IMG/VR virus record: IMGVR_UViG_3300036985_006613
Span: 1 to 37,252 of that record
DNA from: a virus
Reading direction: 5' to 3' (one strand)
DNA length: 37,252 nt
Shown here in pieces: positions 3,132 to 23,141 of the stretch. The position numbers and the translations under genes were made by a program. The notes under the pieces are model-generated. The model worked only from the letters and a program-made list of their open reading frames with translations. It was not told the DNA's origin and did not search any database. Each line of letters begins with the position of its first letter. The first letter of the stretch is position 1.

Positions 3132-4187
3132 ATGGGAAAACCATTTGACGTAAGCAAATTCCGCAAGGAAATTACAAAAAGCATCGAAGGCCTGAGTATT
3201 GGATTTAACGATCCAACAGACTGGATCAGCACAGGCAACTATGCCCTGAACTATCTGATCTCAGGAGACTTTAATCGTGGTGTGCCATTGGGCAAAGTCA
3301 CAGTGTTTGCCGGAGAATCAGGTGCCGGCAAAAGCTACATCTGTTCCGGCAACATCATTAAGAACGCACAACAACAAGGCATCTATGTGGTGCTAATTGA
3401 CAGTGAAAATGCACTAGATGAAAAGTGGTTGCATGATCTTGGCGTGGATACTAACGATAGCAAATTGTTAAAACTGTCAATGGCCATGATTGATGATGTG
3501 GCAAAGACCATCAGCACATTCATGAGCGACTACAAAGCATTGGCAAATGGTGAACGACCAAAAGTATTGTTTGTGATTGATAGCTTGGGTATGTTACTCA
3601 CCCCAACCGACGTAAATCAGTTTGATGCCGGCGATATGAAAGGTGACATGGGTCGTAAACCCAAAGCACTTACTGCATTAGTTCGCAACTGTGTCAATAT
3701 GTTTGGCAGCTACAACGTGGGGTTGGTGTGTACCAATCACACTTACGCTAGTCAAGACATGTTTGACCCTGATGACAAGATTTCAGGTGGGCAAGGGTTT
3801 GTTTATGCAAGCTCAATTGTTGTTGCGATGAAAAAACTCAAGCTCAAAGAAGATGAAGATGGCAACAAGATAACCGATGTCATGGGCATACGTGCCGCAT
3901 GTAAGGTGATGAAAACTCGGTATGCCAAACCATTTGAAGGTGTGCAAGTTAAAATTCCTTACGAAACAGGAATGAGTCCTTACTCCGGACTAACCGACTT
4001 GATTGAAAAGAAAGCCATGCTCAAGAAAGAAGGCAACAGCTTGGTATTCACCACAAGTGACGGAGAGATCATCAAGAAGTTTCGCAAGGCTTGGGAACGC
4101 AATGACGACAGTTGTCTAGATATTGTAATGAAAGATTTTGATCATCAGAAGTCAGAGGTAAGTATCGCTGAAGGAGAATCTGAATGA
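3132..4187 (+). CDS. uvsX: UvsX RecA-like recombinase
   Basis: The 351-residue protein is the phage strand-exchange recombinase, which forms filaments on single-stranded DNA and drives recombination-dependent replication. The Walker A loop GESGAGKS is at residues 61-68 and the Walker B strand VLFVID ends at Asp150. The segment GQGFVYASSIVVAMKK fits the RecA/UvsX DNA-binding region. The length is close to the family norm (T4 UvsX is about 390 residues). It lies in a gp32-X-uvsX-acidic protein-uvsY run and overlaps the next gene by 4 nt (ATGA). Confidence 0.9.
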   Translation: MGKPFDVSKFRKEITKSIEGLSIGFNDPTDWISTGNYALNYLISGDFNRGVPLGKVTVFAGESGAGKSYICSGNIIKNAQQQGIYVVLIDSENALDEKWLHDLGVDTNDSKLLKLSMAMIDDVAKTISTFMSDYKALANGERPKVLFVIDSLGMLLTPTDVNQFDAGDMKGDMGRKPKALTALVRNCVNMFGSYNVGLVCTNHTYASQDMFDPDDKISGGQGFVYASSIVVAMKKLKLKEDEDGNKITDVMGIRAACKVMKTRYAKPFEGVQVKIPYETGMSPYSGLTDLIEKKAMLKKEGNSLVFTTSDGEIIKKFRKAWERNDDSCLDIVMKDFDHQKSEVSIAEGESE

Positions 4188-4925: not shown

Positions 4926-5687
4926 ATGAAAATTGTCATTGTAACCGGGGGATACGATCCCCTACATTCTGGACACTTGGCCTACTTCAGAGCAGCCAAA
5001 AAACTTGGTGATAGACTTATTGTAGGACTCAATTCTGACGAGTGGCTTGCTCGTAAAAAAGGTCGGCCATTCATGCCCATGAGTGAACGATTTGCCCTGG
5101 TATCGTGTTTGAACATGGTTGACGAAGTTATCACATATAAAGATGCCGACGGGTCAAGTTGTGATGCTATTCGACTGGTAAAGACCAAGTACCCCAACTC
5201 AGAAATTGTATTTGCTAATGGCGGTGACCGCACACGTGATAATATCCCAGAAATGATATTTGACGATGTGGAGTTTGTGTTTGGTGTTGGCGGCCAAGAT
5301 AAAAAAAACTCGTCCAGCTGGATATTAGAGGAATGGAACAAGCCTCGTACTCCTCGCACCTGGGGAAACTATCGTGTGCTACATGAGGTTGGTACCAACA
5401 CTAAACTCAAAGAACTCACGGTGAATCCCAAAACTTGTCTTAGTATGCAACGGCATGACCAACGAGCCGAATTTTGGTTTGTGGCCGAGGGTAGTGCTAC
5501 TGTATACACCTTGGATGAGAAATCCACAGACGAGGACATCAAGTGCTCGTTAACTGTACACGAACATTGTTGGATTGCTATAAACGAATGGCACCAATTG
5601 TGTAATGAGACTGATCAACCGTTAAAGATAATTGAAATTCAATACGGGGCGTCATGTGACGAACTTGATATAGAAAGAATAAAATGA
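4926..5687 (+). CDS. HldE/RfaE-type nucleotidyltransferase fused to a cupin
   Basis: The 253-residue protein has two domains. Residues 1-135 form a cytidylyltransferase-like Rossmann domain with the HSGH motif (14-17), a GDRLIVGLNSD strand and NGGDRTRDNIPE. This pattern is typical of the enzymes that put a nucleotide onto heptose-1-phosphate or glycerol-3-phosphate. Residues about 145-245 form a cupin like the C-terminal isomerase domain of ManC (CLSMQRHDQRAEFWFVAEG). Together they could activate and isomerise a sugar for the glycosyltransferases downstream. The precise sugar and nucleotide are not readable. The stop overlaps the next ATG by 4 nt. Confidence 0.75.
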   Translation: MKIVIVTGGYDPLHSGHLAYFRAAKKLGDRLIVGLNSDEWLARKKGRPFMPMSERFALVSCLNMVDEVITYKDADGSSCDAIRLVKTKYPNSEIVFANGGDRTRDNIPEMIFDDVEFVFGVGGQDKKNSSSWILEEWNKPRTPRTWGNYRVLHEVGTNTKLKELTVNPKTCLSMQRHDQRAEFWFVAEGSATVYTLDEKSTDEDIKCSLTVHEHCWIAINEWHQLCNETDQPLKIIEIQYGASCDELDIERIK

Positions 5688-6037
5688 AAGCAGGCAAAAT
5701 TTGGGGCCAAACAGAATTACTAGAAGCCAATGGTGTATTAGAATTTCATCGTATACAGGCAACTGCCGGCGGTGTATGCTCAAAACATAAACATGAATTC
5801 AAATGGAATGGATTTTTTGTTGAATCTGGCCAAATGATTATTCGTGTATGGAAAGGCAACTATGATCTAATAGATGAAACAGTTCTAACTGCAGGACAAT
5901 ACACCAAAGTGGCACCTGGAGAATTTCATCAGTTTGAAGCAGTGGAAGATACTGTGGCATTTGAATTATACTGGGCCGAATTTGACCACAACGATATTGA
6001 ACGTGAGACTGTGGGAAAACTTAGAGGTTCAGAATGA
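5684..6037 (+). CDS. Single-domain cupin protein
   Basis: The 117-residue product is a small double-stranded beta-helix. The first cupin motif holds HKHEFKWNGFFVESG and the second APGEFHQFEA, giving two or three candidate metal-binding histidines and a glutamate. It overlaps both neighbours by 4 nt. It resembles sugar-phosphate isomerase or epimerase cupins, and its position after a nucleotidyltransferase-cupin fusion suggests it works on the same sugar. Catalysis is not proven; some cupins are only binding proteins. Confidence 0.7.
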   Translation: MKAGKIWGQTELLEANGVLEFHRIQATAGGVCSKHKHEFKWNGFFVESGQMIIRVWKGNYDLIDETVLTAGQYTKVAPGEFHQFEAVEDTVAFELYWAEFDHNDIERETVGKLRGSE

Positions 6038-7650
6038 CTTTTAAAGTTTTTATTGGGTGGGATAGTAGAGAACAAGACGCTGCAGAAGTTTGTCGATATA
6101 GTATACTTAAACACACCTCGGAGCCAGTTGAAATACATTTTCTTAAACTGAAAGAATTACAAGCACAAGATGGCCTGTATACTCGAGAGTCCGATCCAGA
6201 CAGCTCTACCGAATTTACATTTTCACGATTTTTAGTCCCATATCTTTGCAATTATACAGGCACAGCATTGTTTGTTGACTGTGACTTTTTGTTCACTCAT
6301 GACATTGCAGAGTTATTTGACTTGGCCACTGACGAACATGCAGTGCATGTGGTACAACATAATTATGTTCCGCCTAACACAATAAAAATGGATGGACAAA
6401 CACAGCATCAGTACCCAAGAAAAAACTGGAGCAGCCTCATGTTGTTTAACTGCGCTCATCCAGATTGTGCGGTATTAACACGAGATATAGTTAACACCCA
6501 AACTGGAAAATATCTACATAGATTTGAGTGGACTGACAAAATTGGCAATCTCAATAGAACGTGGAACTGGCTGGTCAACTGGTATCACGAGCCAGTTGAC
6601 GGCAAACCCAAAGCCATACACTATACCGAAGGTGGCCCATGGTTTCCTGCTCACGAACATACAGAATATGGGGCCAATTGGGTTAATGTGTATAATGAAT
6701 ATAAAGATGTCGACCCTGCACCCGTCATTGATTGTGTTCCACCCGACTTGCAAAAAATATTTGATAATCTTCTCAATTATCGTGTGGATCCTGCTGGCAC
6801 GGTGTATGGAATTACTTTACCAATTCTAACACAACAACTTGCCGCGCTGCCGGTCAACAACATAGTATCCATAAACAGCGATGTCAACTACGAAAGAAAA
6901 GGTCACATGTACGATCCCATACTACAAAGTTTTGTGCAAGGAGCCGGCGGCCAACTCAGCAACTGGGCCAAAGAAGAATTTAATACAACGCCAGTTGTGT
7001 TGCGTGGCATTACCAAACGTAAACACATGGAAGCCTGTAAAACTGCTGGCCGAGATTTTTACTATATGGATACTGGATATTTTGGCAATAATATAAAAAG
7101 AAAAATATACCATAGAATAACACGCAACGATATGCAATGGTTTGGCCCAGTTATAAATCGTCCAGCGGATAGATTTATTCAAACCGGCGTAAGTATAAAA
7201 AAAATGAGAAGAGGTACTAATATTCTCATTGCACCGCCCAGTCAAAAACTGTTAAACAACTATGATATCATTTTGGAAGATTGGTTGGCCAACGTACAAG
7301 CAGAAATACGAGCGCACACCGACCGACCTGTTGTGATTCGTACCAAACAAGGTCGTACAGCCAGACTTGTTGATGATACAATGGAGATGGCACTGGATCG
7401 AGATGTGTATTGTTTAGTTACGTTTAGTAGTATTGCAGCTGGAGAAGCCTTGCTGCTAGGCAAGCCTGCAATCACACTAGGACCAAACGCAGCCGGGCCG
7501 TTATGCAGTCACAGCATTAGTGCAATTGAAAATCTACGTATCCCTTCATTGGATGAAGTTGCAGCCTGGGCACACCACTTGTCCTACTGTCAGTTTACTG
7601 AACTAGAAATGCGTGATGGCACAGCATGGCGTATACTCAATGACCGTTGA
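6034..7650 (+). CDS. Two-domain glycosyltransferase: GT-A fused to capsule/Kdo-transferase-like GT-B
   Basis: The 538-residue protein is a fusion. Residues 1 to about 240 are GT-A-like, starting KVFIGWDSREQDA and carrying a metal-binding DxD at Asp82/Asp84 (FVDCDFLF). Residues about 300-538 are GT-B-like and resemble the Kdo/capsule-transferase group, with HTDRPVVIR and the sugar-nucleotide loop VTFSSIAAGEALLLGKPAI. The GT-B half is plainly homologous to the minus-strand gene at 10328-11137, down to the ending YCQF...GTAWRIL. Two linked activities could add two sugars in sequence. It overlaps the neighbouring genes by 4 and 11 nt. Confidence 0.75.
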   Translation: MTFKVFIGWDSREQDAAEVCRYSILKHTSEPVEIHFLKLKELQAQDGLYTRESDPDSSTEFTFSRFLVPYLCNYTGTALFVDCDFLFTHDIAELFDLATDEHAVHVVQHNYVPPNTIKMDGQTQHQYPRKNWSSLMLFNCAHPDCAVLTRDIVNTQTGKYLHRFEWTDKIGNLNRTWNWLVNWYHEPVDGKPKAIHYTEGGPWFPAHEHTEYGANWVNVYNEYKDVDPAPVIDCVPPDLQKIFDNLLNYRVDPAGTVYGITLPILTQQLAALPVNNIVSINSDVNYERKGHMYDPILQSFVQGAGGQLSNWAKEEFNTTPVVLRGITKRKHMEACKTAGRDFYYMDTGYFGNNIKRKIYHRITRNDMQWFGPVINRPADRFIQTGVSIKKMRRGTNILIAPPSQKLLNNYDIILEDWLANVQAEIRAHTDRPVVIRTKQGRTARLVDDTMEMALDRDVYCLVTFSSIAAGEALLLGKPAITLGPNAAGPLCSHSISAIENLRIPSLDEVAAWAHHLSYCQFTELEMRDGTAWRILNDR

Positions 7651-8569
7651 TGTAGTTGTATACATCAGTAGCGTGGCAAACCCTCGAAAGCATTCTAGGA
7701 AAATTGCATGCTTAGAAAGTTTTGCCGAGGGAGTTACTAAAACAGGGCACCGCGTTCACGTTGAACGGGATTTTAAATATCGCCCGGGACGATTGGCCGT
7801 GATGTTGGGGTGGGCAACAACAAATACTGGTGGACCAAACATTGTATTACGAAAACAAATCATTGCCGAGCAACAACGATGCAACTTCAAGACCATGTGT
7901 ATTGATGCTAGTTGTTGGAAATATCTTGATGACTCGGGCACTTACTTACGATACAGTCTAGGTGGGCCGTTTTATGATCGTGCAGAATACGCAAACAAAT
8001 ACAGTGGTCCAGAAAAGTGGCAAGAAATAAGTCGACAATTATCCTTACAACTGAAGCCACCCAGCGTTAACAATGGACACGTACTGATATGTATGCAACG
8101 TGACGGAGGATTTTCAATGAAGTCGTTAAATCCTATCGAATGGCTGGATACAAAAATAAAAGAGATAAGACTGCATACCACACGAGCAATTGTTATTCGG
8201 CCACATCCAAATGCTTATGAAATGCAGAACTTTAACAAATATGCATTATCACAGTATAGAAAACAATGGAATGTATCTGTTATAGATCCCAAACATAGTA
8301 AACTAACTGACAATCTAGTAGGAGCACACTCTGTGGTGCTGTTTAATAGTTCAGCAAGTGTGGCAGCAGTGTGTGCTGGTATACCTTTATTTGCTGATGA
8401 TTCAAGTTGCGTAAGTTGGGCAGTGGCAAATAAAAATGTGTCTAACATTGAATCACCAATGATATTTGATCGACAGCAGTGGATTCAAGACTTGGCCGCC
8501 GCTCACTGGAGTGACGAAGACGCCCGGACAGGCAAAATATATCAAAAGTTTTTGCCTTACTTGACCTGA
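7640..8569 (+). CDS. GT-B glycosyltransferase-like protein (capsule/Kdo-transferase group)
   Basis: I choose the ATG at 7640 (product starts MTVDVVVYIS, 309 residues) over the in-frame ATG at 7613. It gives a compact 11-nt overlap with the previous gene and a normal first beta strand. The C-terminal half contains HTTRAIVIRPHPN and VVLFNSSASVAAVCAGIPLF, the same motifs as the other GT-B domains of the island but more diverged. It meets the minus-strand methyltransferase operon tail to tail with a 13-nt overlap. The donor and acceptor cannot be read from sequence. Confidence 0.65.
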   Translation: MTVDVVVYISSVANPRKHSRKIACLESFAEGVTKTGHRVHVERDFKYRPGRLAVMLGWATTNTGGPNIVLRKQIIAEQQRCNFKTMCIDASCWKYLDDSGTYLRYSLGGPFYDRAEYANKYSGPEKWQEISRQLSLQLKPPSVNNGHVLICMQRDGGFSMKSLNPIEWLDTKIKEIRLHTTRAIVIRPHPNAYEMQNFNKYALSQYRKQWNVSVIDPKHSKLTDNLVGAHSVVLFNSSASVAAVCAGIPLFADDSSCVSWAVANKNVSNIESPMIFDRQQWIQDLAAAHWSDEDARTGKIYQKFLPYLT

Positions 8570-9126
8570 CGTTTTACCACAACAACATCATAGTTATGGC
8601 CTTTGACATTGGGCCATTTTGATGTTTTATCTACCACTTGTATATTTTCCCACACAATATCAACATCCATAATACTTTGTATTTTGTTACGCCACCACTC
8701 TGGTAATTCGACTATAAGATGTGCATTGCGTCCGTCGGGCAACTGTTTTTTTGCTGGATAACAGGCAATTCTAAAAAAGCCACAACGTTGCATTTTTTCA
8801 TTGATAATGCGTAATGTAGTATCAAGGTACTTGGGCTCAATGTGTTCTATAGCATCTGTACTGATCACAGTGTCTGTTGGATGTTTTGGCAAATGCTGAA
8901 AGTTTGGATTGCCGGGATCGTATCCGGTAACCTCAATTTCGGGATGTAGTTCTTTGATTGTGGCAATTAGTCCTCCATGCCCGCACCCAAAGTCTAACAC
9001 ACTGGTAGGCTGATATTTTTCAATAAAGTCTTTGACAAGTGGATAGGATGTATGTCCGTTACCAAACTTGCCTGCTTGATGCAAATATTCAAGTTGGGCT
9101 TTGTAATCTTTATCTAGTAGTGTCAT
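8557..9126 (-). CDS. SAM-dependent methyltransferase
   Basis: The 189-residue protein has the class I methyltransferase motif I VLDFGCGHGG, then an acidic residue ending strand 2 (EVTGYDPG), and motif IV-like VISTDAIEHIEP. This resembles small-molecule methyltransferases of the UbiG/sugar type. It is the last gene of a five-gene minus-strand operon transcribed from 11945 and overlaps the preceding methyltransferase by 17 nt. A sugar or lipid substrate fits the island, but the target is unknown. Confidence 0.75.
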   Translation of the reverse strand: MTLLDKDYKAQLEYLHQAGKFGNGHTSYPLVKDFIEKYQPTSVLDFGCGHGGLIATIKELHPEIEVTGYDPGNPNFQHLPKHPTDTVISTDAIEHIEPKYLDTTLRIINEKMQRCGFFRIACYPAKKQLPDGRNAHLIVELPEWWRNKIQSIMDVDIVWENIQVVDKTSKWPNVKGHNYDVVVVKRQVK

Positions 9127-9697
9127 TGTTCATCCAGGTAGGGTTATAGGGTTTATCTCGAAACCACCAGTGCAAGTCTGAACCTTGCCAGTTTCTAAAA
9201 AATTCTCTGTACCAATCTTGACTGCGATCAACAGAAAAGTATTGTTTGTTATATATTTGTTTTTTGGCCTTAGGCTGTTGAACATGCATGCCTATAAAAC
9301 AAGCTCGTCCGGCCAGATTCATTAATCTTTGTTTGACCCATTCTAAATCATCATCGGGTATATAGGGTAACACTTGATTGCAAATGACTAAATTATATTT
9401 TTGGTCGGCCGGCTCGCTGGAAAATTCTGTAACACACGGGTCGTATTGAACCACACTATCAACATTAAGATAGTTAATAAATTTCATAGGCGTAGTGTCG
9501 GGCCAAAATGCTGTAGTTTCTGCCCATTGCTGGCCTTTGCCACATCCATAATCAAGTACAGTCTTACAGTTATAATGTTGTGCCACATCTCGAATTTGTC
9601 GATGGTATGAAAATGTGTCTTTCCCGTCCCAACTTTTGTTTTGTTGCTGAAACACTGCACCTAGTTTGACTGATTGTTCATAATATGCACTTACCAT
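9110..9697 (-). CDS. SAM-dependent methyltransferase
   Basis: The 195-residue protein has motif I VLDYGCGKGQ, a strand-2 acidic position (VVQYDPCV) and the motif IV-like strand YNLVICNQVLPYIPDDDLEWV. The region after it is Trp- and Tyr-rich (QDWYREFF, DLHWWFRDKPY). It overlaps both neighbouring methyltransferase genes, by 17 and 7 nt, so the three are co-translated. It is not a close copy of the downstream methyltransferase despite the shared fold. The substrate is unknown. Confidence 0.75.
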   Translation of the reverse strand: MVSAYYEQSVKLGAVFQQQNKSWDGKDTFSYHRQIRDVAQHYNCKTVLDYGCGKGQQWAETTAFWPDTTPMKFINYLNVDSVVQYDPCVTEFSSEPADQKYNLVICNQVLPYIPDDDLEWVKQRLMNLAGRACFIGMHVQQPKAKKQIYNKQYFSVDRSQDWYREFFRNWQGSDLHWWFRDKPYNPTWMNNDTTR

Positions 9698-10335
9698 CCC
9701 ATAATCCAGTCATCTTTAATTTGATCTAGCTTGATCATGCCCCAGTCTTCCAACAGGCCAATGGCAGCAAACTGACCATAGTTTTTGGCATACATGTCAT
9801 GCGGTTTTTGTTCTATTACAACAACAGGACGGCAACGTTTTATGGTTTGTATTGCACCTTGCAGCACACGATATTCAAATCCTTCGCAGTCTATTTTGAT
9901 GTAGTCGACGTTTTGTAAATTCAAGCTGTCTAGTCTAACAATAGTAGTATTGCCACCTGCACTTGACGGATCAACATGCGTGTGTCCTGTATTGCCTTCG
10001 GTAATGATCATATTGACCATACCATCCTGATCGCCCAGTGCAATTGATTGCACAGTTAGATTTGATGCAGTAACATTGCGGTGTAAACACTCTCTAAACA
10101 TCTCAACCGGTTCAAATGCAATCACTTGTTCAAAGTGTTTGACCAAGTCTCGACTCCATAACCCCACGTTAGCACCAATATCTAGTGCTATTCTTTTGTT
10201 ATTAACCCGTTGTAGACTACGCAATCGCACAGGTTGTTGATATTCTGGCAAACCACCTTTGCTGATGTTTTTGGCCAGCATTTGTGGAAAATGTTTTTCA
10301 ATGTCTGGAAAGTACCATCCATAGTGTTCACGCAT
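9691..10335 (-). CDS. FkbM-family methyltransferase
   Basis: I place the start at 10335 (MREHYGWYF, 214 residues), where ATGCGTGA overlaps the upstream stop by 8 nt. The longer frame to 10407 would overlap by 80 nt. Motif I is LDIGANVGLWS (residues 51-61), followed by VIAFEPVEMF and the FkbM hallmark VDYIKIDCEGFEYRVLQGA, then VVVIEQKP. FkbM enzymes commonly O-methylate sugars or polyketides, so a polysaccharide substrate is likely here. It follows a GT-B gene directly. Confidence 0.8.
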   Translation of the reverse strand: MREHYGWYFPDIEKHFPQMLAKNISKGGLPEYQQPVRLRSLQRVNNKRIALDIGANVGLWSRDLVKHFEQVIAFEPVEMFRECLHRNVTASNLTVQSIALGDQDGMVNMIITEGNTGHTHVDPSSAGGNTTIVRLDSLNLQNVDYIKIDCEGFEYRVLQGAIQTIKRCRPVVVIEQKPHDMYAKNYGQFAAIGLLEDWGMIKLDQIKDDWIMGW

Positions 10336-11137
10336 GATATGTGTCCTGTAATATTCGCAATGCTGTGCCATTTGCCAATTCTTGATTGGAAAATTGACAA
10401 TATGCAAGATGTGACAACCATGCTTCTATACGATCTCTATCAGGATACCATGGTGATTCAATCTTGGACAGGTCCGTATTGCACACCGGCAATGCAGCAT
10501 TGCATGGGGCCAGTACAAAGGCCGGAACTCCGGCCATGATACTTTCTGTTGCTGCAATTGAGTTAAAGGTCACCAGGGCATGTGCATCTTCCAATGCTGA
10601 TTGCATGTTGTTGGTTATACGAGTTTGTCTATTGGGATTTCGTTGTCTTATCTCTATGGGTCTATCAGAGTGCTGCTTGATAGTTGCCACTGTGGTACTC
10701 AGCCAATCATCCAGATTGATATCGTAGAACACACATGGTTTCTCGTCGGGCGCAGCAATTAGTATTTTGTGACCATTCTTTTTTGGTGCAACTGGGGACA
10801 TGCCCAGTTTCCACCACCGATCAGTAGGCCGGTTGATTATTGAGTTGTGTTGCAAATTATTTGGTACAATTCTGTGCCATACTTTATCTCCACGTGGATT
10901 TTTAACATATTTCTGATTGCCAAGATATCCTGAATCTATATACCAGAAATCACGGTTATCTTGCCAACATTGCTTGATAATTTTGTGCTTCATAATGCCA
11001 CGCACAACCAACGGAGCATTGCTGTCTTGATAACGCCATGTTTCCAGTGTAGTAGGGACGGCACCACATCCGCGAGCAAACATTTCAATGTATTCGTCAG
11101 AATTTTTTTTGTTAAGAAATATCCAGTTCATTGCCAA
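10328..11137 (-). CDS. GT-B glycosyltransferase-like protein, stand-alone paralogue of the fused GT-B domain
   Basis: The 269-residue protein aligns along its length with residues about 300-538 of the fused glycosyltransferase at 6034-7650. Shared blocks include VVRGI.K, YxDxGY.GN, HRI, INRP.DR, HSDRPIEIR, LVTFNSIAATESIMAGVPAF and the ending YCQF...GTALRIL. It overlaps the upstream GT-A gene by 10 nt, so the GT-A then GT-B order of the fusion is reproduced here as two separate genes. It probably transfers an activated sugar; the donor is unknown. Confidence 0.7.
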   Translation of the reverse strand: MAMNWIFLNKKNSDEYIEMFARGCGAVPTTLETWRYQDSNAPLVVRGIMKHKIIKQCWQDNRDFWYIDSGYLGNQKYVKNPRGDKVWHRIVPNNLQHNSIINRPTDRWWKLGMSPVAPKKNGHKILIAAPDEKPCVFYDINLDDWLSTTVATIKQHSDRPIEIRQRNPNRQTRITNNMQSALEDAHALVTFNSIAATESIMAGVPAFVLAPCNAALPVCNTDLSKIESPWYPDRDRIEAWLSHLAYCQFSNQELANGTALRILQDTYHA

Positions 11138-11931
11138 TATGCTTCTGTTCTTGGAACTTTGAGATCAACACGTTTACTGCGACCGAGATCTTTTCTTGCA
11201 CCTTTGAGATGATCCAACCATGCTCCCCATTCGCTGTTGATCAATGGATGACCTTCGCCAGCAATCAAATGCCCTGACCAATCTAATTCTTTCAACGGCA
11301 AATGTTTTTTTACTGCGTCAAACACAAAACTATCATGCCATTCATCCAGGGTAAAAATACCATTTTCGGCATCATCGTATGCCTGTTGGAATTTGCTTAA
11401 AAATAATCGAGTGGCAGAACTGGTTAGATTCATTGCATATAATCCGCATTCTGTATATTTGTGTCCTCGACCCAGGAAACAAAGATCCATTCTGTCAGGG
11501 CACAATTTCTCTATATTGTTTATATCAATGGGACTATGACATATGGTATCTGCATCCATCCAAATTAACCACTGTGTTTGTGCATTTTTTGCACAGTGGA
11601 AAATAGCATAAACCTTGTGTGCAAAACGCACAGCGTCCCATTTAAATCCTTTACCGGCATCTTTCCGGCGACTGCGAACTGGGTCGTTGCTCACATTACC
11701 GTTGGCTTTTGGCACTCCCCGCCATTGAGTCTTGAATGCAACTAATTCTGAACTTGCTGTGGCTAAATCATACACAGATAAATTGGTTGCTGATTCCAAA
11801 ACCTCACATGCTTCTGCATATACTATCAGTTGAACCGTGCTAGGCCAGGTTTGCAAAAAGGTTTGAATCATTCGCTGCCCATATTTTTCATAGCCATCAG
11901 CGTTAAAAGTGGTACATACAGAGTATTTCAT
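11128..11931 (-). CDS. GT-A glycosyltransferase-like protein, first gene of the minus-strand operon
   Basis: The 267-residue protein begins with a Rossmann-type strand (YSVCTTFNADGY) and has the DxD metal site at Asp126/Asp128 in WLIWMDADTICHSP. The pattern fits a nucleotide-sugar dependent GT-A enzyme. It heads the overlapping operon GT-A, GT-B, FkbM, methyltransferase, methyltransferase. The ATG is only 1 nt from the predicted +1 of the late-type promoter at 11938-11945, with no ribosome binding site. Confidence 0.7.
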   Translation of the reverse strand: MKYSVCTTFNADGYEKYGQRMIQTFLQTWPSTVQLIVYAEACEVLESATNLSVYDLATASSELVAFKTQWRGVPKANGNVSNDPVRSRRKDAGKGFKWDAVRFAHKVYAIFHCAKNAQTQWLIWMDADTICHSPIDINNIEKLCPDRMDLCFLGRGHKYTECGLYAMNLTSSATRLFLSKFQQAYDDAENGIFTLDEWHDSFVFDAVKKHLPLKELDWSGHLIAGEGHPLINSEWGAWLDHLKGARKDLGRSKRVDLKVPRTEAYWQ

Positions 11932-11937
11932 GTGAGA

Positions 11938-11945
11938 TATTTAGT
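11938..11945 (-). promoter_or_regulatory. Late-type promoter (minus strand), near-leaderless
   Basis: ACTAAATA on the minus strand, with T4 late spacing, gives +1 at 11932, one base before the ATG at 11931. It would drive the five-gene glycosylation and methylation operon down to 8557. Confidence 0.6.
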
Positions 11946-12786
11946 GATTAAAAACATAGCCTATTATCCTTTGCAATGTGCTCTAAACAGCAGGCCGCCC
12001 ATGTTAGCCATGCTATCTGCATTGCGGTCCAATGGGATTGCCACGCAAGAATGTAGTATGGATTCTAATGCAGTATTATTATGGTCGTCACTGTGGTTTG
12101 GCCGTATGGCAGCAAATCAACCAATATATCAACATTACCGGAATTTAGGCAAGCCAGTGATATTTGTTGATATTGGCGCACTCAATCGCGGTGTAACCTG
12201 GAAAGTAGCTGTCAACAGTATCAATGCCACAGGGTATTACGGGCATGAAACAAATTTAGATTGGGACCGACCAGCAAAATTACAACTGAAATTATCAACG
12301 CCCACAAATGCAAAATCACATGTGGTAATTGCAGCTCAGCACACACGCAGTGAACAAGTGAGCGGAATTCAGTTAGAAACTTGGATAACAGAACAAATTC
12401 GATCTATTAGGAATCATACAGATAGGCCCATACATATACGTCCACATCCACGATGTCAATTGAACACTGGTAGTTTTAAACAAGTCACCATCAATAACCC
12501 TGTGGCTCTTCGGGGCACGTATGATAGTTTTGATTTGCCATTGGATTGTCATGCAATTGTAAATTATAACTCTGGGCCCGGGATACAAGCGGCCATAGCA
12601 GGTTGCCGACCTGTGGTAGATCAATCCAGTCTGGCATATCCAGTTGCAGTAAATATAGCAGACATTGATTGTGCGTATGTGGTTGATAGAAAGCAATGGT
12701 TGGTTGAAACAAGCCATACCGAATACACAGTAGAAGAATTACAACAAGGATTATGGCTAAAAAGATTAGAACCAGCACTGGCATAA
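11944..12786 (+). CDS. GT-B glycosyltransferase-like protein
   Basis: The open frame extends upstream to 11830, but that part lies inside the minus-strand GT-A gene. I take the GTG at 11944, which gives 280 residues starting with a strand (IKNIAYYPLQCAL). Motifs shared with the other GT-B domains are HTDRPIHIRPHPR and AIVNYNSGPGIQAAIAGCRPV. The next gene starts 34 nt before its stop and encodes a GT-A protein, so this is a third GT pair, in reverse order. Start confidence is low because neither promoter nor ribosome binding site is evident; a leaky divergent promoter is possible. Confidence 0.6.
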   Translation: MIKNIAYYPLQCALNSRPPMLAMLSALRSNGIATQECSMDSNAVLLWSSLWFGRMAANQPIYQHYRNLGKPVIFVDIGALNRGVTWKVAVNSINATGYYGHETNLDWDRPAKLQLKLSTPTNAKSHVVIAAQHTRSEQVSGIQLETWITEQIRSIRNHTDRPIHIRPHPRCQLNTGSFKQVTINNPVALRGTYDSFDLPLDCHAIVNYNSGPGIQAAIAGCRPVVDQSSLAYPVAVNIADIDCAYVVDRKQWLVETSHTEYTVEELQQGLWLKRLEPALA

Positions 12787-13490
12787 TAGACTGTGCCTGT
12801 GTGATACACAGCACTGGATATGATTGGACCTATGTGGAACGATTGTACAACATGCTTACCAGGAATTTGCCCAATGGCATACGGTTCCATGTGTACACCG
12901 AACACGATCGTAGTGTGCCACCTCACTTGATCAAACACATATTACAAGATTGGCCAGGTATAAGTGGTCCCAAACGATCGTGGTGGCACAAATTGCAATT
13001 GTTCAATCCCGAGCATCATGCAGGCAACCTGCTGTATTTTGATCTAGATACTGTGATTGTGCGAGATGTCAGTTGGATTACTCAATTGGATTCTAGTTAT
13101 TTGTGGGGTATCAAAGATTTTAGATATTTGCAAAATCCCGTGAGATCTTCCATCAACTCCAGTGTCATGTGGTGGAATGTGACAAAATTTGCCACAGTAT
13201 GGGATGATTTTAAAAACACAGACGTTGCCATGACCACACGTCGGTATCCGGGTGACCAGGATTATTTGTCAGCACAAGTGGGACACAACAAGATTCGATA
13301 TCTTGACCAGGATCAAATAAAAAGCTGGCGCTGGCAATGCATGGAAGGAGGCTATGATTTTCAGCGTAGAAAGCACCGGGAACCAGGCACCCCAGCACAG
13401 ATTACAGGCGATACTTCTATAATAGTGTTTCACGGTACTCCCAAGCCCCATACAATTAAGGATAACTTGGTAAAAGAAAATTGGAAATAA
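12753..13490 (+). CDS. GT-A glycosyltransferase-like protein
   Basis: The 245-residue protein has a GT-A pattern. There is a first strand CACVIHSTGYDW, a conserved KRSWWHKLQLF segment and the DxD at Asp97/Asp99 (LLYFDLDTVIV). A late SSVMWWN and a terminal histidine in VFHGTPKPH may be acceptor-site and metal residues. It resembles a family often found in phages and surface-polysaccharide loci. The first ten residues overlap the preceding GT-B gene, so a slightly later non-ATG start is possible. It closes the sugar island. Confidence 0.7.
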   Translation: MAKKIRTSTGIIDCACVIHSTGYDWTYVERLYNMLTRNLPNGIRFHVYTEHDRSVPPHLIKHILQDWPGISGPKRSWWHKLQLFNPEHHAGNLLYFDLDTVIVRDVSWITQLDSSYLWGIKDFRYLQNPVRSSINSSVMWWNVTKFATVWDDFKNTDVAMTTRRYPGDQDYLSAQVGHNKIRYLDQDQIKSWRWQCMEGGYDFQRRKHREPGTPAQITGDTSIIVFHGTPKPHTIKDNLVKENWK

Positions 13491-13553: not shown

Positions 13554-13916
13554 ATGAAGAAAACTGCAATAATTGCTCTGATTGCGATCAGTGCTGCCGG
13601 TACCTCCCATGCTTGGGGTCCAGCCGAACAGGCTGGACTGGCAGGGTTATTTCTTGGAGCAATAATTGGGCACCAAGTTAAATCCAATTCTGAACAACAG
13701 CCCAATGTTGTGTATCAGCAACAGCCAAACGTTGTGTATCAACAACAGCCTAATGTTGTGTATCAGCAACAGCCCAATGTTGTGTATCAACAACAGCAGC
13801 CCGTTGTGATTTATCAGCGTCGTCATGCACCTCATATGGATCGTTTGCCACGCGGATGGTGTGGTGTGTTGGGGCAAGATCAATACGGAAACAGGGTGTC
13901 AATTCCTTGCAATTGA
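13554..13916 (+). CDS. Exported glycine-zipper protein with PNVVYQQQ repeats
   Basis: The 120-residue product has a clear signal peptide (MKKTAIIALIAISAAGTSHA, cleavage after residue 20). Next come a short glycine-zipper-like hydrophobic stretch (GLAGLFLGAIIGHQV), four octapeptide repeats PNVVYQQQ and a C-terminal domain with two cysteines (WCGVLGQDQYGN...IPCN) that may form a disulfide. It should be periplasmic or outer-membrane associated. It has its own sigma-70 promoter and an AGGAG ribosome binding site, suggesting early expression. Envelope remodelling or superinfection exclusion is possible but speculative. Confidence 0.75.
   Translation: MKKTAIIALIAISAAGTSHAWGPAEQAGLAGLFLGAIIGHQVKSNSEQQPNVVYQQQPNVVYQQQPNVVYQQQPNVVYQQQQPVVIYQRRHAPHMDRLPRGWCGVLGQDQYGNRVSIPCN
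13698..13793 (+). repeat. Four 24-bp tandem repeats
   Basis: Units begin at 13698, 13722, 13746 and 13770, each a variant of CAGCCCAATGTTGTGTATCA + RCAA, with differences mostly at third codon positions. They encode PNVVYQQQ. A fifth, diverged copy with an extra CAG follows. The copy number may vary between relatives. Confidence 0.9.
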
Positions 13917-15278: not shown

Positions 15279-16142
15279 ATGCCTCAACACATGCTGATCC
15301 GTTTTGGCCTAAACGGAGATTTAACCCTCAAATTTCAAATACGTGATACACCTGTAGCAGAATTATGGGTTGAGCGTATGCAAGCCCGCAGACATTACCC
15401 ATTGGATCATCCAGACAGATTTTACGGGTTTGGCACCCTTGAGCAAGAACAACTTCGCGCAGTTGAGTACATCCAACAATGTATTAGAACAATCAACTCA
15501 CACGAATCTCTTGTACAAAGACCGTTTGAGTACACACAGGACTGCCTCAATTACTTGCACAACATATTTGAACAACACCACGGACTGCTAGATCAACAAA
15601 ACAGTGATTATTGGCTTCGTGCCCCGGAGTCGGTCAGAAAAGCACTGGCTGATTTAAACTTGGCCGTGCATAGATGTGAAAGCGTGTGGTCTGGTACCAA
15701 TCCAAGATTTGTTTGCACCTGGTATGGCATGCCTAAAACACAACAACTATCTTTGGAATTGCAAGATCGACATACTGCCAGTCAAGTTGAGTTTGGCACT
15801 GTGTATCTAAACTATTGTGAAATTGGAAAAACTGTTGAGGATTTGGCCAACGATAACGATAAGTACATAAGTGATAATGCGTTTCGACCATTTAGTCATT
15901 ACAGCGCCGACTTTAATGTACAATTTCGAGATCGAGATCTTACAATCAAGTATGATAAAATTCAAAAGTATATTGACCAGCATTGTGACTTTTTCGTTGC
16001 TCGCGGCATCACAACCGTGTATAATACACAAGCAAGACCCATAAGATTACCAGTTGCAGATTTAGTTTACAACAGCAACCAAGAACAAATATTATTCCAA
16101 ATTGCACAACGGCAATGGGTACAACAAGTGACAATAGAATGA
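15279..16142 (+). CDS. Unknown conserved-looking phage protein upstream of uvsW
   Basis: The 287-residue protein is not recognised. It is soluble, with several Trp, Tyr and His residues and no signal or membrane segment. The middle region (residues about 60-125) looks helical and the C-terminal half beta-rich (VEFGTVYLNYCEIGKT, FNVQFRDRDLTIKYD). It is the first gene of a sigma-70 unit that continues into uvsW, which it overlaps by 4 nt (ATGA), suggesting early function in replication, repair or takeover. The ATG coincides with the predicted transcription start; an alternative ATG at 15291 also lacks a ribosome binding site. Confidence 0.75.
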   Translation: MPQHMLIRFGLNGDLTLKFQIRDTPVAELWVERMQARRHYPLDHPDRFYGFGTLEQEQLRAVEYIQQCIRTINSHESLVQRPFEYTQDCLNYLHNIFEQHHGLLDQQNSDYWLRAPESVRKALADLNLAVHRCESVWSGTNPRFVCTWYGMPKTQQLSLELQDRHTASQVEFGTVYLNYCEIGKTVEDLANDNDKYISDNAFRPFSHYSADFNVQFRDRDLTIKYDKIQKYIDQHCDFFVARGITTVYNTQARPIRLPVADLVYNSNQEQILFQIAQRQWVQQVTIE

Positions 16143-20316: not shown

Positions 20317-21144
20317 ATAAAAACTATTGAACTTGATTATTTTACAATTGGCAACAACCAACCATTGACCGTGATTGCTGGACCGTGTCAAATTGAAGAC
20401 TTAGCTCATGCCGTGGCTATGGCCTCAGAAGTAAAACGCATTTGCAACGACTTAAATGTTCAATTCATTTACAAAAGTAGTTTTGACAAAGCAAATAGAA
20501 CCAGTATAAGCACCACCCGTGGTGTGGGTATGGAACAAGGATTGGAAATTTTAAAAACAGTTAGTTCCAAAATTGGTGTCCCTACAATCACAGACATACA
20601 CGAATCATCGCAGGCCGGTGTTGTGGCCCAATCAGTTGACCTACTACAAATTCCGGCATTTTTATGCAGACAAACTGATTTGCTGTTGGCTGCCGGGGCC
20701 ACTGGCCGGCCTATCAATGTTAAAAAAGGTCAATTTTTAGCACCATGGGATATGAAAAATGTTGCAGAAAAAATTGCATCAACTGGCAATCACAATATCA
20801 TGCTGTGTGAAAGAGGTCATAGTCACGGATACAATGATCTTGTGGTGGACATGCGCAGTTTACCTATCATGGCAAGTACTGGTTATCCTGTGGTGTTTGA
20901 CTGCACTCATAGTGTTCAACAGCCCGGCAAGCTGGGTGACAAGTCTGGGGGAGACAGAACCATGGTGCCTTTTCTAGCTCGGGCCGCAGCGGCCACTGGA
21001 TGTTTGAGTGCAGTTTTTATTGAAACTCACGAGAATCCCGACACAGCCCCCAGTGATGGTCCAAACATGATCCCATTGAAACAACTGAGAGGACTGATAG
21101 GTCAGTTGAATTTCATTCACAATAATGTTAGAAACTTTGTATGA
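20317..21144 (+). CDS. kdsA: Kdo-8-phosphate synthase
   Basis: KdsA condenses phosphoenolpyruvate with arabinose-5-phosphate, the committed step to Kdo. The reading frame shows [76 protein letters not shown] and FIETHENPD, all diagnostic. The Cys in IAGPC marks the metal-dependent class. The first standard start codon is a TTG at 20365, but that cuts off the N-terminal hairpin ([15 protein letters not shown]) typical of the family. No ATG, GTG or TTG precedes it before the upstream stop, so I extend to an ATA at 20317 preceded by GGGGTGG. The true start is uncertain. Confidence 0.8.
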
Positions 21145-21710
21145 GTGCTGATATTGATATTGACTTTGCCAATCGCGAACATATACTGAAACTGATTGAG
21201 TATACACCTGCACGACAAAGCAACGGAAAAAAACATAATTCAGGTGTGTATGTCACAGACATTCCACAAGATCCTGTCAATCAATGTGCTGCCATAGACT
21301 ACGAACAAGCAGAGCAACGTGGCTATTTTAAAATAGACTTCTTGAACATGAGTGTGTATCAATTGGTCAAAAGCCCTGACCACTATCAAGAGATGTTGGC
21401 AGCTGCTCCGCCGTGGGATCGATTGTGGCAAGATAACACCTGGGCAAAGCAACTGGTACACATAGGCAACTATACTGACCTGTTAAAGAACATGCGTCCA
21501 AGCACCATACCACAAATGGCAGCTTTTATATCAATCATTAGACCAGGTAAATCACACTTACAAAACCAACCCTGGAAAGTTGTGTTTGACTCTGTATGGG
21601 ACAGCGACGATAGCAAAGGCTATACGTTTAAAAAATCTCACAGTTTATCTTATGCAATGCTGGTGAAGTTGCACATGAACTTGCTCACTCAACCCGCCGT
21701 ACCAGGGTGA
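21141..21710 (+). CDS. Miniature DnaE-like (C-family polymerase) protein
   Basis: The 189-residue protein reads as a condensed copy of the catalytic motifs of bacterial DNA polymerase III alpha. ADIDIDF (residues 3-9) corresponds to PDxDxDF with two catalytic aspartates. [12 protein letters not shown] matches the HxAGVV block, and [10 protein letters not shown] (61-70) matches the VKxDFLGL block with the third aspartate (Asp66). IRPGK resembles RPGP, and [11 protein letters not shown] matches NKSHAxxYAL. DnaE proteins exceed 1,000 residues, so the thumb, most of the fingers, PHP and tail parts are missing. It overlaps kdsA by 4 nt. It may be a non-replicative nucleotidyltransferase, a decoy or a remnant. 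Confidence 0.65.
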
Positions 21711-22076: not shown

Positions 22077-23141
22077 TATTCCACTACATCATACTTATAT
22101 CAGCAAATCACCAAGGTATTATTGATTGATACCAGCGGCGGATATTTCACAGCGAGGTACAACCCAGTGTACGCAAAACAACTAACAGTTAACAAGGGCG
22201 TGGATAACGTTCTTTTGTTTGAATTTATCAACCAGGAGGAAAAGCCGGTAAACATCACCGGCAGCACATTTGTGTTCCGAATGATCAGTCAAAATGGCGA
22301 TACATTATTACTCAGCAAGGCAATGACCATTCTCAGTGCCACACTTGGGCGTGTTAAGGTGGTATTGTCAACAGAAGATACCATTGATATGATAGCACAA
22401 CCGGCCAGCTATTCTATCCAACGATCAGCTGGAGACTATGTGCAGGCCGCATATACCGATGCAAACTCTGGCGCCAGAGCCGACTGTAATATTGTAGATA
22501 GCATACTACCGCAATTCCAGGACAGCACAAATCTATCAATCCCAACAATTTATGGACCAGCATCTTGGCCATCAACCCCTCCGGCAGGATGGCCAGATTG
22601 GGCGTTGAGCCCGCAACCACTAAACTATACCCATACTACTGAATTTTATTCCAGCAACATACCAACTCACGGCGCCAGCATGACCACCATTAAGATGGAT
22701 CTCACACATTTTACAGGAACAATCAAAGCACAAGGTGCCGATGACTATGAAGCAGTTTGGTATAATGTTACAGAAAGCACACAATATATGGATGCAACAG
22801 AAACCATATATCTTAATGTAGTGGGATTCCATCCGTTGATTCGAGTTGCACTGAATCAAAGTCAAGGATGGGGAGCGCAAGCAACTGCACAAGTAACAGA
22901 TGGAATAGTAACAGGAGTTACTGTGACTGATCCAGGAATGAATTATGTGGCCAATCCCAATGTGTTGATTGTGGGCAACGGTTCGGGCGCTCAGGCAGTT
23001 GCCCAACAATCTGGCGGGCTGGTCAATGGCATCACAGTCACTGATGGTGGAAATGGGTATCTGCCTATAACTTTTGGCAATACTACCATGGCCAGTGTGG
23101 TCATAAACAACGGAACTGTTACCAATTTGCTGTATCGTTGA
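22074..23141 (+). CDS. Virion structural protein, baseplate or fibre type
   Basis: The start at 22074 (MYSTTSYLYQQ, 355 residues) is chosen from the promoter position; the TTG at 22068 lies inside the promoter. The N-terminal domain (residues about 35-125) has the pattern LLFEFINQEEKPVNITGSTFVFRM, like the N-terminal beta-sandwich of baseplate upper proteins (BppU). The C-terminal part contains two repeats of the form GSGAQAVAQ...GLVNGITVTDGGNGY, a motif common in tail fibres and baseplate proteins. Late promoter use fits a virion role. Confidence 0.7.
   Translation: MYSTTSYLYQQITKVLLIDTSGGYFTARYNPVYAKQLTVNKGVDNVLLFEFINQEEKPVNITGSTFVFRMISQNGDTLLLSKAMTILSATLGRVKVVLSTEDTIDMIAQPASYSIQRSAGDYVQAAYTDANSGARADCNIVDSILPQFQDSTNLSIPTIYGPASWPSTPPAGWPDWALSPQPLNYTHTTEFYSSNIPTHGASMTTIKMDLTHFTGTIKAQGADDYEAVWYNVTESTQYMDATETIYLNVVGFHPLIRVALNQSQGWGAQATAQVTDGIVTGVTVTDPGMNYVANPNVLIVGNGSGAQAVAQQSGGLVNGITVTDGGNGYLPITFGNTTMASVVINNGTVTNLLYR

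Follow-up and report, generated by a model that had tools for sequence, protein, structure and literature searches.

The virus record IMGVR_UViG_3300036985_006613 of IMG/VR, 37,252 bases long and here called the window, carries a glycosyltransferase island at about positions 4926-13490. The island combines one family of GT-B-type glycosyltransferases with three GT-A-type glycosyltransferases that, judged from their sequences, appear unrelated to one another. T4-like replication genes occur in the window, specifically, genes for a single-stranded DNA-binding protein (SSB)-like product at 1409, UvsX at 3132, helicases at 16115 and 24851, and a primase at 23138. The uvsX DNA resembles that of jumbo phages of ~350 kb, and related contigs reach 364 kb. 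The window looks like a fragment of the genome of a large aquatic bacteriophage, and the replication genes, together with the fact that no integrase was noticed, suggest a lytic lifestyle.

Throughout, A1 and fusB denote the GT-A and GT-B halves of a fusion protein, A1' is a separate GT8 gene found in relatives, A2 and A3 are the products of 11128-11931 and 12753-13490, and B7640, B10328, and B11944 are the remaining GT-Bs, named by their first coordinate. HP-class GT-Bs carry an RxHP motif that non-HP GT-Bs lack. Structure models were made for the fusion and for B7640 with AlphaFold2 (AF2), and are scored by the predicted local distance difference test (pLDDT) and the predicted template modeling score (pTM). 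CMP is cytidine monophosphate, Kdo is 3-deoxy-D-manno-octulosonic acid, and SAM is S-adenosylmethionine. The features are as follows.

4926-5687, plus strand: nucleotidyltransferase (HldE/TagD-like) fused to a phosphomannose-isomerase-type cupin, probably a sugar-nucleotide enzyme (PF01467, PF01050; rfaE_dom_II 71.9 bits, below cut-off)
5684-6037, plus strand: small cupin (PF07883 1.2e-5, below cut-off)
6034-7650, plus strand: fusion gene, 538 amino acids, GT-A half then GT-B half
6034-6708, plus strand: A1, GT8-like GT-A half of the fusion, residues 1-225 (PF01501 over cut-off; DxD motif D82/D84)
6709-6738, plus strand: linker of the fusion, low confidence, residues 226-235 (pLDDT < 50; proline-rich in many relatives; exchange boundary)
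6739-7650, plus strand: fusB, non-HP class, with RTKQ and PSQKL (family BLAST, motif class, model)
7640-8569, plus strand: B7640, HP class (Q153, R187-P-H-P190), CMP-sugar transferase-like, predicted Kdo-transferase fold (AF2 model, PDB matches)
8557-9126, minus strand: SAM methyltransferase (PF13489, phrog_24759)
9110-9697, minus strand: SAM methyltransferase, paralogue of 8557-9126 (phrog_24759 1e-12; blastp 9e-6)
9691-10407, minus strand: FkbM-type methyltransferase (PF05050 5e-19)
10328-11137, minus strand: B10328, non-HP class (RQRN, PDEKP), sister class of fusB (41% identity to fusB, tree)
11128-11931, minus strand: A2, putative GT-A with DxD at 126-128 and HxxGxxK at 241-247 (PF00535 in orthologues, invariant motifs)
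11944-12786, plus strand: B11944, HP class (RPHP, QHTRS), GTG start, divergent and head-to-head with A2
12753-13490, plus strand: A3, putative GT-A with DxD at 97-99 (phrog_1962)
20365-21144, plus strand: KDO-8-phosphate synthase (KdsA), outside the island (TIGR01362 377.2 bits, cut-off 314)

An earlier note, made from the letters of this DNA alone, had described the fusion at 6034-7650, a two-gene counterpart on the minus strand (11128-11931 and 10328-11137) with a shared end motif, and a third pair in reversed order at 11944-13490. All three are present, and neighboring genes overlap: the fusion and B7640 by 11 nt, B10328 and A2 by 10 nt, and B11944 and A3 by 34 nt.

All four GT-B parts belong to a single family, homologous beyond chance. 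The shared end motif reads YCQF..EMRDGTAWRIL in the fusion and YCQF..ELANGTALRIL in B10328. Blastp joins five of the six pairs: fusB with B10328 (E=2e-62), B7640 with B11944 (2e-16), B10328 with B11944 (2e-13) and with B7640 (6e-13), and fusB with B11944 (2e-4). The match of fusB to B7640 is weak (0.01), yet its shuffle z-score is 5.8, the low end of a range that extends to 88 among the four. Iterated profile searches, one started from each GT-B, end on the same 228-229 proteins, and comparison of the HP and non-HP class profiles gives an E-value of 6e-37.

Comparison with relatives divides the family into two classes. The loci compared came from pattern-seeded scans from which the best 80 were taken, so that frequencies given here describe the retrieved sample only, and E-values of the related-locus search are relative to the candidate set. 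Several contigs are near copies, which gene counts include; trees were built on deduplicated sets. Gene order was surveyed in 169 loci and GT-B motifs in 427 aligned GT-Bs. In that alignment, the RxHP site shows xHP in some proteins and a basic variant in the others, and the Gln site is occupied by Q or P; a few outgroup GT-Bs have Q or S at the Gln site together with a non-HP motif. RxHP is present in every HP-class member, and the Gln is invariant in alignment A6. Checking the window for (K/R)XHP returned RPHP in B7640 and B11944, RTKQ in the C-terminal half of the fusion, and RQRN in B10328. Non-HP proteins have lost both RxHP and the Gln, yet they are strongly conserved and therefore unlikely to be decaying. 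They are also the class coupled to GT-As (171 of 211): fusions to A1 account for 78, genes directly behind A1 or A1' for 32, and genes directly behind A2 for 61. By comparison, leaving out those that come after a whole fusion, 5 of 214 HP-class GT-Bs directly follow a lone GT-A. We infer that the non-HP class may act as a dedicated GT-A partner, with a changed donor or acceptor-handling role.

A fold for the family is suggested by the AF2 model of B7640 (pLDDT 95.1, pTM 0.91). In the PDB, the 21 structures most similar to it come without exception from retaining beta-Kdo transferases, namely KpsC, KrkA, and WbbB (E 9.8e-8 to 1.5e-4, query-normalized TM-score up to 0.56), and the next matches are unrelated GT-B-like enzymes with lower scores. 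B7640 is accordingly modeled as the modified GT-B fold of the retaining beta-Kdo transferases (GT99/GT107/GT140). In sialyltransferases and retaining Kdo transferases, the (K/R)XHP motif binds CMP, and a QXXXD motif holds the nucleophile (PMC12887879; for WbbB, PMC9587256). The spacing from Q to H is 36 in the HP class and 37 in WbbB (Q228, H265). Against a viral structure library, B7640 best matches "capsule polysaccharide biosynthesis" proteins of Tetraselmis virus 1 and unnamed phage proteins, one of which, 547 amino acids long, could correspond to this fusion. In Tetraselmis virus 1, a giant virus of algae, at least four proteins are structurally related to the phage GT-B (BFVD A0A2P0VNK4, A0A2P0VP54, A0A2P0VP72, and A0A2P0VP74).

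The GT-A parts are glycosyltransferases on evidence of differing kinds. A1 scores 30.3 bits with Pfam GT8 (Glyco_transf_8, PF01501; gathering score 24.3), and Foldseek matches its model to the GT8 structures GlyE, LARGE1, LgtC, and glycogenin (E 1e-7 to 1e-9), and also to a capsid-glycosylation enzyme of PBCV-1. D82 and D84 of its DxD motif are invariant in relatives. The fusion model as a whole has a pTM of 0.51, and its interdomain orientation is unreliable; therefore, we make no claim about an interface. A3 matches a PHROG glycosyltransferase family (phrog_1962, 1e-22), with D97 and D99 invariant. Evidence for A2 is weaker: PF00535 falls below cut-off in the window copy and matches 8 of 12 orthologues (best E 3.6e-5), and the DxD and HxxGxxK motifs are invariant. 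A2 has ~580 relatives in viral contigs. A3 is distantly related to PmgQ of phage P1, a "putative morphogenetic function," and to HdmD of P7, which suggests that these two proteins could be glycosyltransferases.

Because A1, A2, and A3 all carry DxD motifs, they likely share the GT-A fold, which was modeled for the fusion. Pairwise, they show no mutual sequence similarity: shuffle z-scores do not exceed 0.9, hhalign probabilities are 2-25%, and iterated searches give disjoint sets. These results bear on the earlier note's idea that a GT-A/GT-B pair was duplicated as a unit and that the two folds are obligate partners. The window does hold three adjacent pairs, and fusB and B10328, 41% identical, are each coupled to a GT-A. 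Since the GT-As are unrelated in sequence, we reject pair duplication; moreover, pairings are facultative, and the GT-B in the third pair belongs to the other class, so we consider this scenario highly improbable. Of the modular, duplicated, and recombined island that had been envisioned, the modular domains, the duplication of the GT-B family, and recombination stand; duplication of the pair does not.

Gene order in the 169 loci is stable. The nucleotidyltransferase-cupin comes first, followed by the A1-B fusion or by A1' plus a GT-B, and then by an HP-class GT-B. Facing this unit are methyltransferases, a non-HP GT-B, and A2, the last divergent from an HP-class GT-B. Behind each of the 45 fusions surveyed stands an HP-class GT-B; B7640, once described as a lone fourth GT-B, is present but is not lone. 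A2 is followed by a 10328-class GT-B in 41 of 79 distinct genes and stands head-to-head with a divergent HP-class GT-B in 60 of the 79. In bacteria, many A1 genes lack a GT-B in their vicinity. Partnership between the folds is not obligatory. A3 follows an HP-class GT-B in 37 of 52 cases; this third pair exists as described, but its GT-B has the CMP motif, unlike those of the other two. The nucleotidyltransferase-cupin is a conserved upstream neighbor (within 1.3 kb) in 37 of 51 fused and 9 of 11 split loci, and the small cupin goes with the fused allele (21 of 51 fused, 0 of 11 split). Right after the island, at 13554-13916, lies a gene whose small product starts much like a signal peptide and contains PNVVYQQQ in tandem repeats; among 24 related loci searched, it has a match only in the closest relative, L010.

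The fusion is a single open reading frame of ~540-560 amino acids in most of the best 80 viral loci (50-96% identity). A bigger fusion behind first-scan matches of ~2.4 kb was ruled out, these being due to an extra upstream GT-B gene or, in locus L045, an upstream A1'. Many relatives carry, in place of the fusion, A1', which is 40-46% identical to A1 and overlaps the next gene by 4-94 nt. That gene mostly encodes a GT-B 64-83% identical to the window fusB, and in a few cases a 10328-class or HP-class GT-B. In loci L156 and L161 (7453-8400 in both), the gene directly behind A1' encodes an HP-class GT-B, which adds a third type of partner for A1'. DNA homology between the window and split relatives extends through the upstream gene to 5647; after a break it picks up again at 6755-6909, within the linker or shortly beyond it.

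Phylogenies of these adjoining parts are discordant. Fused and split alleles are separated by one change in every bootstrap tree of the GT-A. The fusB tree requires 8 changes, and a single clade is rejected (log-likelihood difference 164.6; approximately unbiased test, p 2e-85). The downstream GT-B tree requires 10 changes, at least 9 of them forced by supported branches, and the upstream nucleotidyltransferase-cupin tree 7, at least 5 of them forced; such counts give no direction of exchange. The pattern suggests that the first GT-A has been swapped repeatedly between related phages, with the GT-B and both flanking genes remaining orthologous. Separate genes may be the ancestral state, because the genes are separate in bacteria and other phages. 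Alternatively, an ancestor possessing both A1' and the A1-B fusion could have produced the pattern by differential loss, with no exchange between phages, and L045 (2995-5320) indeed has A1' directly upstream of the fusion, with an 8-nt overlap. L045, however, is the only locus seen with both, the repeated independent losses would amount to 7-10 changes, and for one and the same phage the nearest relative differs from one flanking gene to another, as expected of recombination. We judge differential loss unlikely. If, as we prefer, the first GT-A is exchanged, phages could therefore switch glycan type. The hypothesis is that aquatic jumbo phages switch glycotype by an allelic first GT-A, a GT8 that is either fused or separate and stands ahead of a conserved GT-B pair, and that non-HP GT-Bs are a new glycosyltransferase family derived from the Kdo fold, with a changed donor and activity only with a GT-A partner. 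We offer this combined hypothesis tentatively, its two parts together being somewhat doubtful.

Relatives of these genes exist in other phages and in bacteria. The cluster in the pelagiphage Mosig holds A2-like, A1-like, GT-B, sulfotransferase, GT-B, and A3-like genes; Caulobacter phage CcrSC has two GT-Bs and then A1, in reverse order, as does CcrColossus. In these phages, as in the window, A1 adjoins a non-HP GT-B, but the two are never fused, and the genes are annotated as hypothetical or putative glycosyltransferases. A1 directly precedes the non-HP GT-B in Mosig and in SAR11, Neomarinimicrobiota-binned, Rickettsiales, and Nitrospinota contigs. Phage record MW202713 has A2-like, methyltransferase, and GT-B genes, and its GT-B is alone among the phage-record homologues examined in having QVPQD as well as RPHP, the full Kdo-transferase signature. 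Its A2-like and GT-B genes (L005, 3263-4027 and 4792-5613) have no annotation in the public record.

SAR11 single-cell genomes encode A1 with ~50-56% identity, with GT-B and A2 nearby (L179, L182), and other marine contigs have it too; some of these other contigs may be phage contamination of metagenome-assembled genomes (MAGs). In SAR11 single cell AG-337-L15 (L179, 4992-10398), genes for A1, a non-HP GT-B, a tetratricopeptide repeat protein, A2, and a GT-B with QLPHD lie downstream of purH and rpe. By gene content this appears to be a chromosomal version of the cassette; its last GT-B has kept QXXXD and lost HP. Two contigs of 335 and 153 kb in Neomarinimicrobiota MAG RS350 (L186, L187) harbor the same cassette, including the nucleotidyltransferase-cupin, and possibly represent a jumbo phage binned with the MAG.

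Considering homology, folds, motifs, gene order, and discordant trees together, we think it rather probable that the island is a phage-encoded cassette for glycan assembly and capping with an exchangeable first GT-A. Its enzymes would be soluble and probably cytoplasmic. In the order of reactions we envision, GT8-like GT-As would add sugars from nucleotide donors, with fused A1 or separate A1' serving interchangeably before the same GT-B pair. The HP-class B7640 and B11944 would most likely add a CMP-activated acidic sugar, for example, Kdo, and the non-HP fusB and B10328 would partner a GT-A with changed donor or acceptor handling. The three methyltransferases probably cap the product, and KdsA and the nucleotidyltransferase-cupin probably supply donors. 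KdsA recurs in one 364-kb relative, and KdsA and KdsB adjoin an A1 homologue in cyanophage S-SCSM2R.

Several observations weigh against this interpretation. The nucleophilic Asp of QXXXD is absent in all four window GT-Bs (QRDGG and QHTRS in the HP class); therefore, even in that class a retaining transfer of Kdo is uncertain. PF05159 has no match in the window GT-Bs or in related records. In a profile search of the GT-Bs against the PDB, the best Kdo transferase, WbbB, is not significant (E 0.46); this search is uninformative by itself, and it was the structure search that settled the fold likeness. KdsA lies ~7 kb from the cassette and is absent from several large relatives, and of the relatives examined, S-SCSM2R alone yielded KdsB. 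A candidate KdsC beside KdsA, at 21141-21710, was dropped, having no family match. Gram-negative hosts make their own CMP-Kdo. For that reason, and because other relatives lack KdsA, its presence is support rather than proof. Finally, because the window is a 37-kb fragment, the acceptor gene and genes for transporters or ligases may be located beyond its ends.

Regarding the acceptor, our first choice is a virion protein, at somewhat less than an even chance. The reasons are that in PBCV-1 such a protein is the target of soluble viral glycosyltransferases whose GT-A fold is similar, and that no polymer export genes were recognized. A host surface glycan ranks second on account of the bacterial homologues, and we give it a distinctly smaller chance. 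The notion is that surface-glycan genes derived from the host enable the cassette to edit host surface polysaccharide, causing superinfection exclusion or receptor masking. Consistent with this idea, SAR11 single-cell genomes hold an A1 54% identical to the phage GT-A, with A2 and GT-B close and purH/rpe upstream in L179, and Kdo-transferase-like folds are typical of capsule and lipopolysaccharide (LPS) synthesis (PMC12887879). However, among the window genes examined, none was recognized as encoding a flippase, polymerase, ligase, or export protein, and the phage looks lytic, so lasting seroconversion would be less useful, with exclusion during infection still conceivable. Overall, host surface editing seems rather unlikely. 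Least likely of the targets weighed is phage DNA, modified as by the T4 glucosyltransferases. Phage glycosyltransferases often act on DNA (PMC12619734), and replication genes (uvsX, SSB-like, helicases) are interspersed with the island. Nevertheless, PF00303 (thymidylate synthase/dCMP hydroxymethylase) is absent from 14 records, two of them ~364 kb, although records may be incomplete; Tet/JBP (PF12851) is absent in all large relatives, among the records searched exceeds cut-off only in DLP6, and is sub-threshold in S-SCSM2R; and the folds match capsule, LPS, and protein glycosyltransferases. We disfavor DNA as quite improbable.

Large phages very commonly encode glycosyltransferases, most of which lack an assigned role. 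In moraphages, another aquatic jumbo lineage, four glycosyltransferase orthogroups belong to the core genome (PMC12619734). The present analysis ties a widespread family, with hundreds of loci, to a predicted Kdo/CMP-sugar transferase fold and separates a canonical GT-B class from an altered one, the latter being the GT-A-coupled class. The exchange of alleles yields a testable model for how the phage coat or the host surface varies, analogous to bacterial serotype and capsule-type switching, and relatives are present in culturable phages (Mosig, Caulobacter phages).

Known systems resemble the cassette in part. The best structural matches of its GT-Bs, KpsC (GT107) and the N-domains of WbbB (GT99) and KrkA (GT140), possess the CMP-binding RxHP and Gln that the window HP class shares, and they are often modules of larger enzymes. 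The window copies, by contrast, lack the nucleophilic Asp, are shorter (~270-310 amino acids), and in half of the cases lack RxHP. LgtC, GlyE, LARGE, glycogenin, and the viral PBCV-1 A64R share with A1 the fold, the DxD motif, and a Pfam GT8 match over cut-off; the fusion differs in joining this half by a short linker to a Kdo-transferase-like GT-B. The bifunctional capsule and O-antigen enzymes KrkA (Kdo and ribose), WbbB, and WbbM likewise place two transferase modules in one chain, whereas the fusion pairs an N-terminal GT8-like half with a C-terminal non-HP GT-B, is phage-borne, and also occurs as separate genes. Last, the capsid glycosylation genes of PBCV-1 are, like the cassette, virus-encoded, specify soluble glycosyltransferases, and match in GT-A fold; PBCV-1 is a eukaryotic virus with a known acceptor, whereas for the phage cassette the acceptor is a predicted one.

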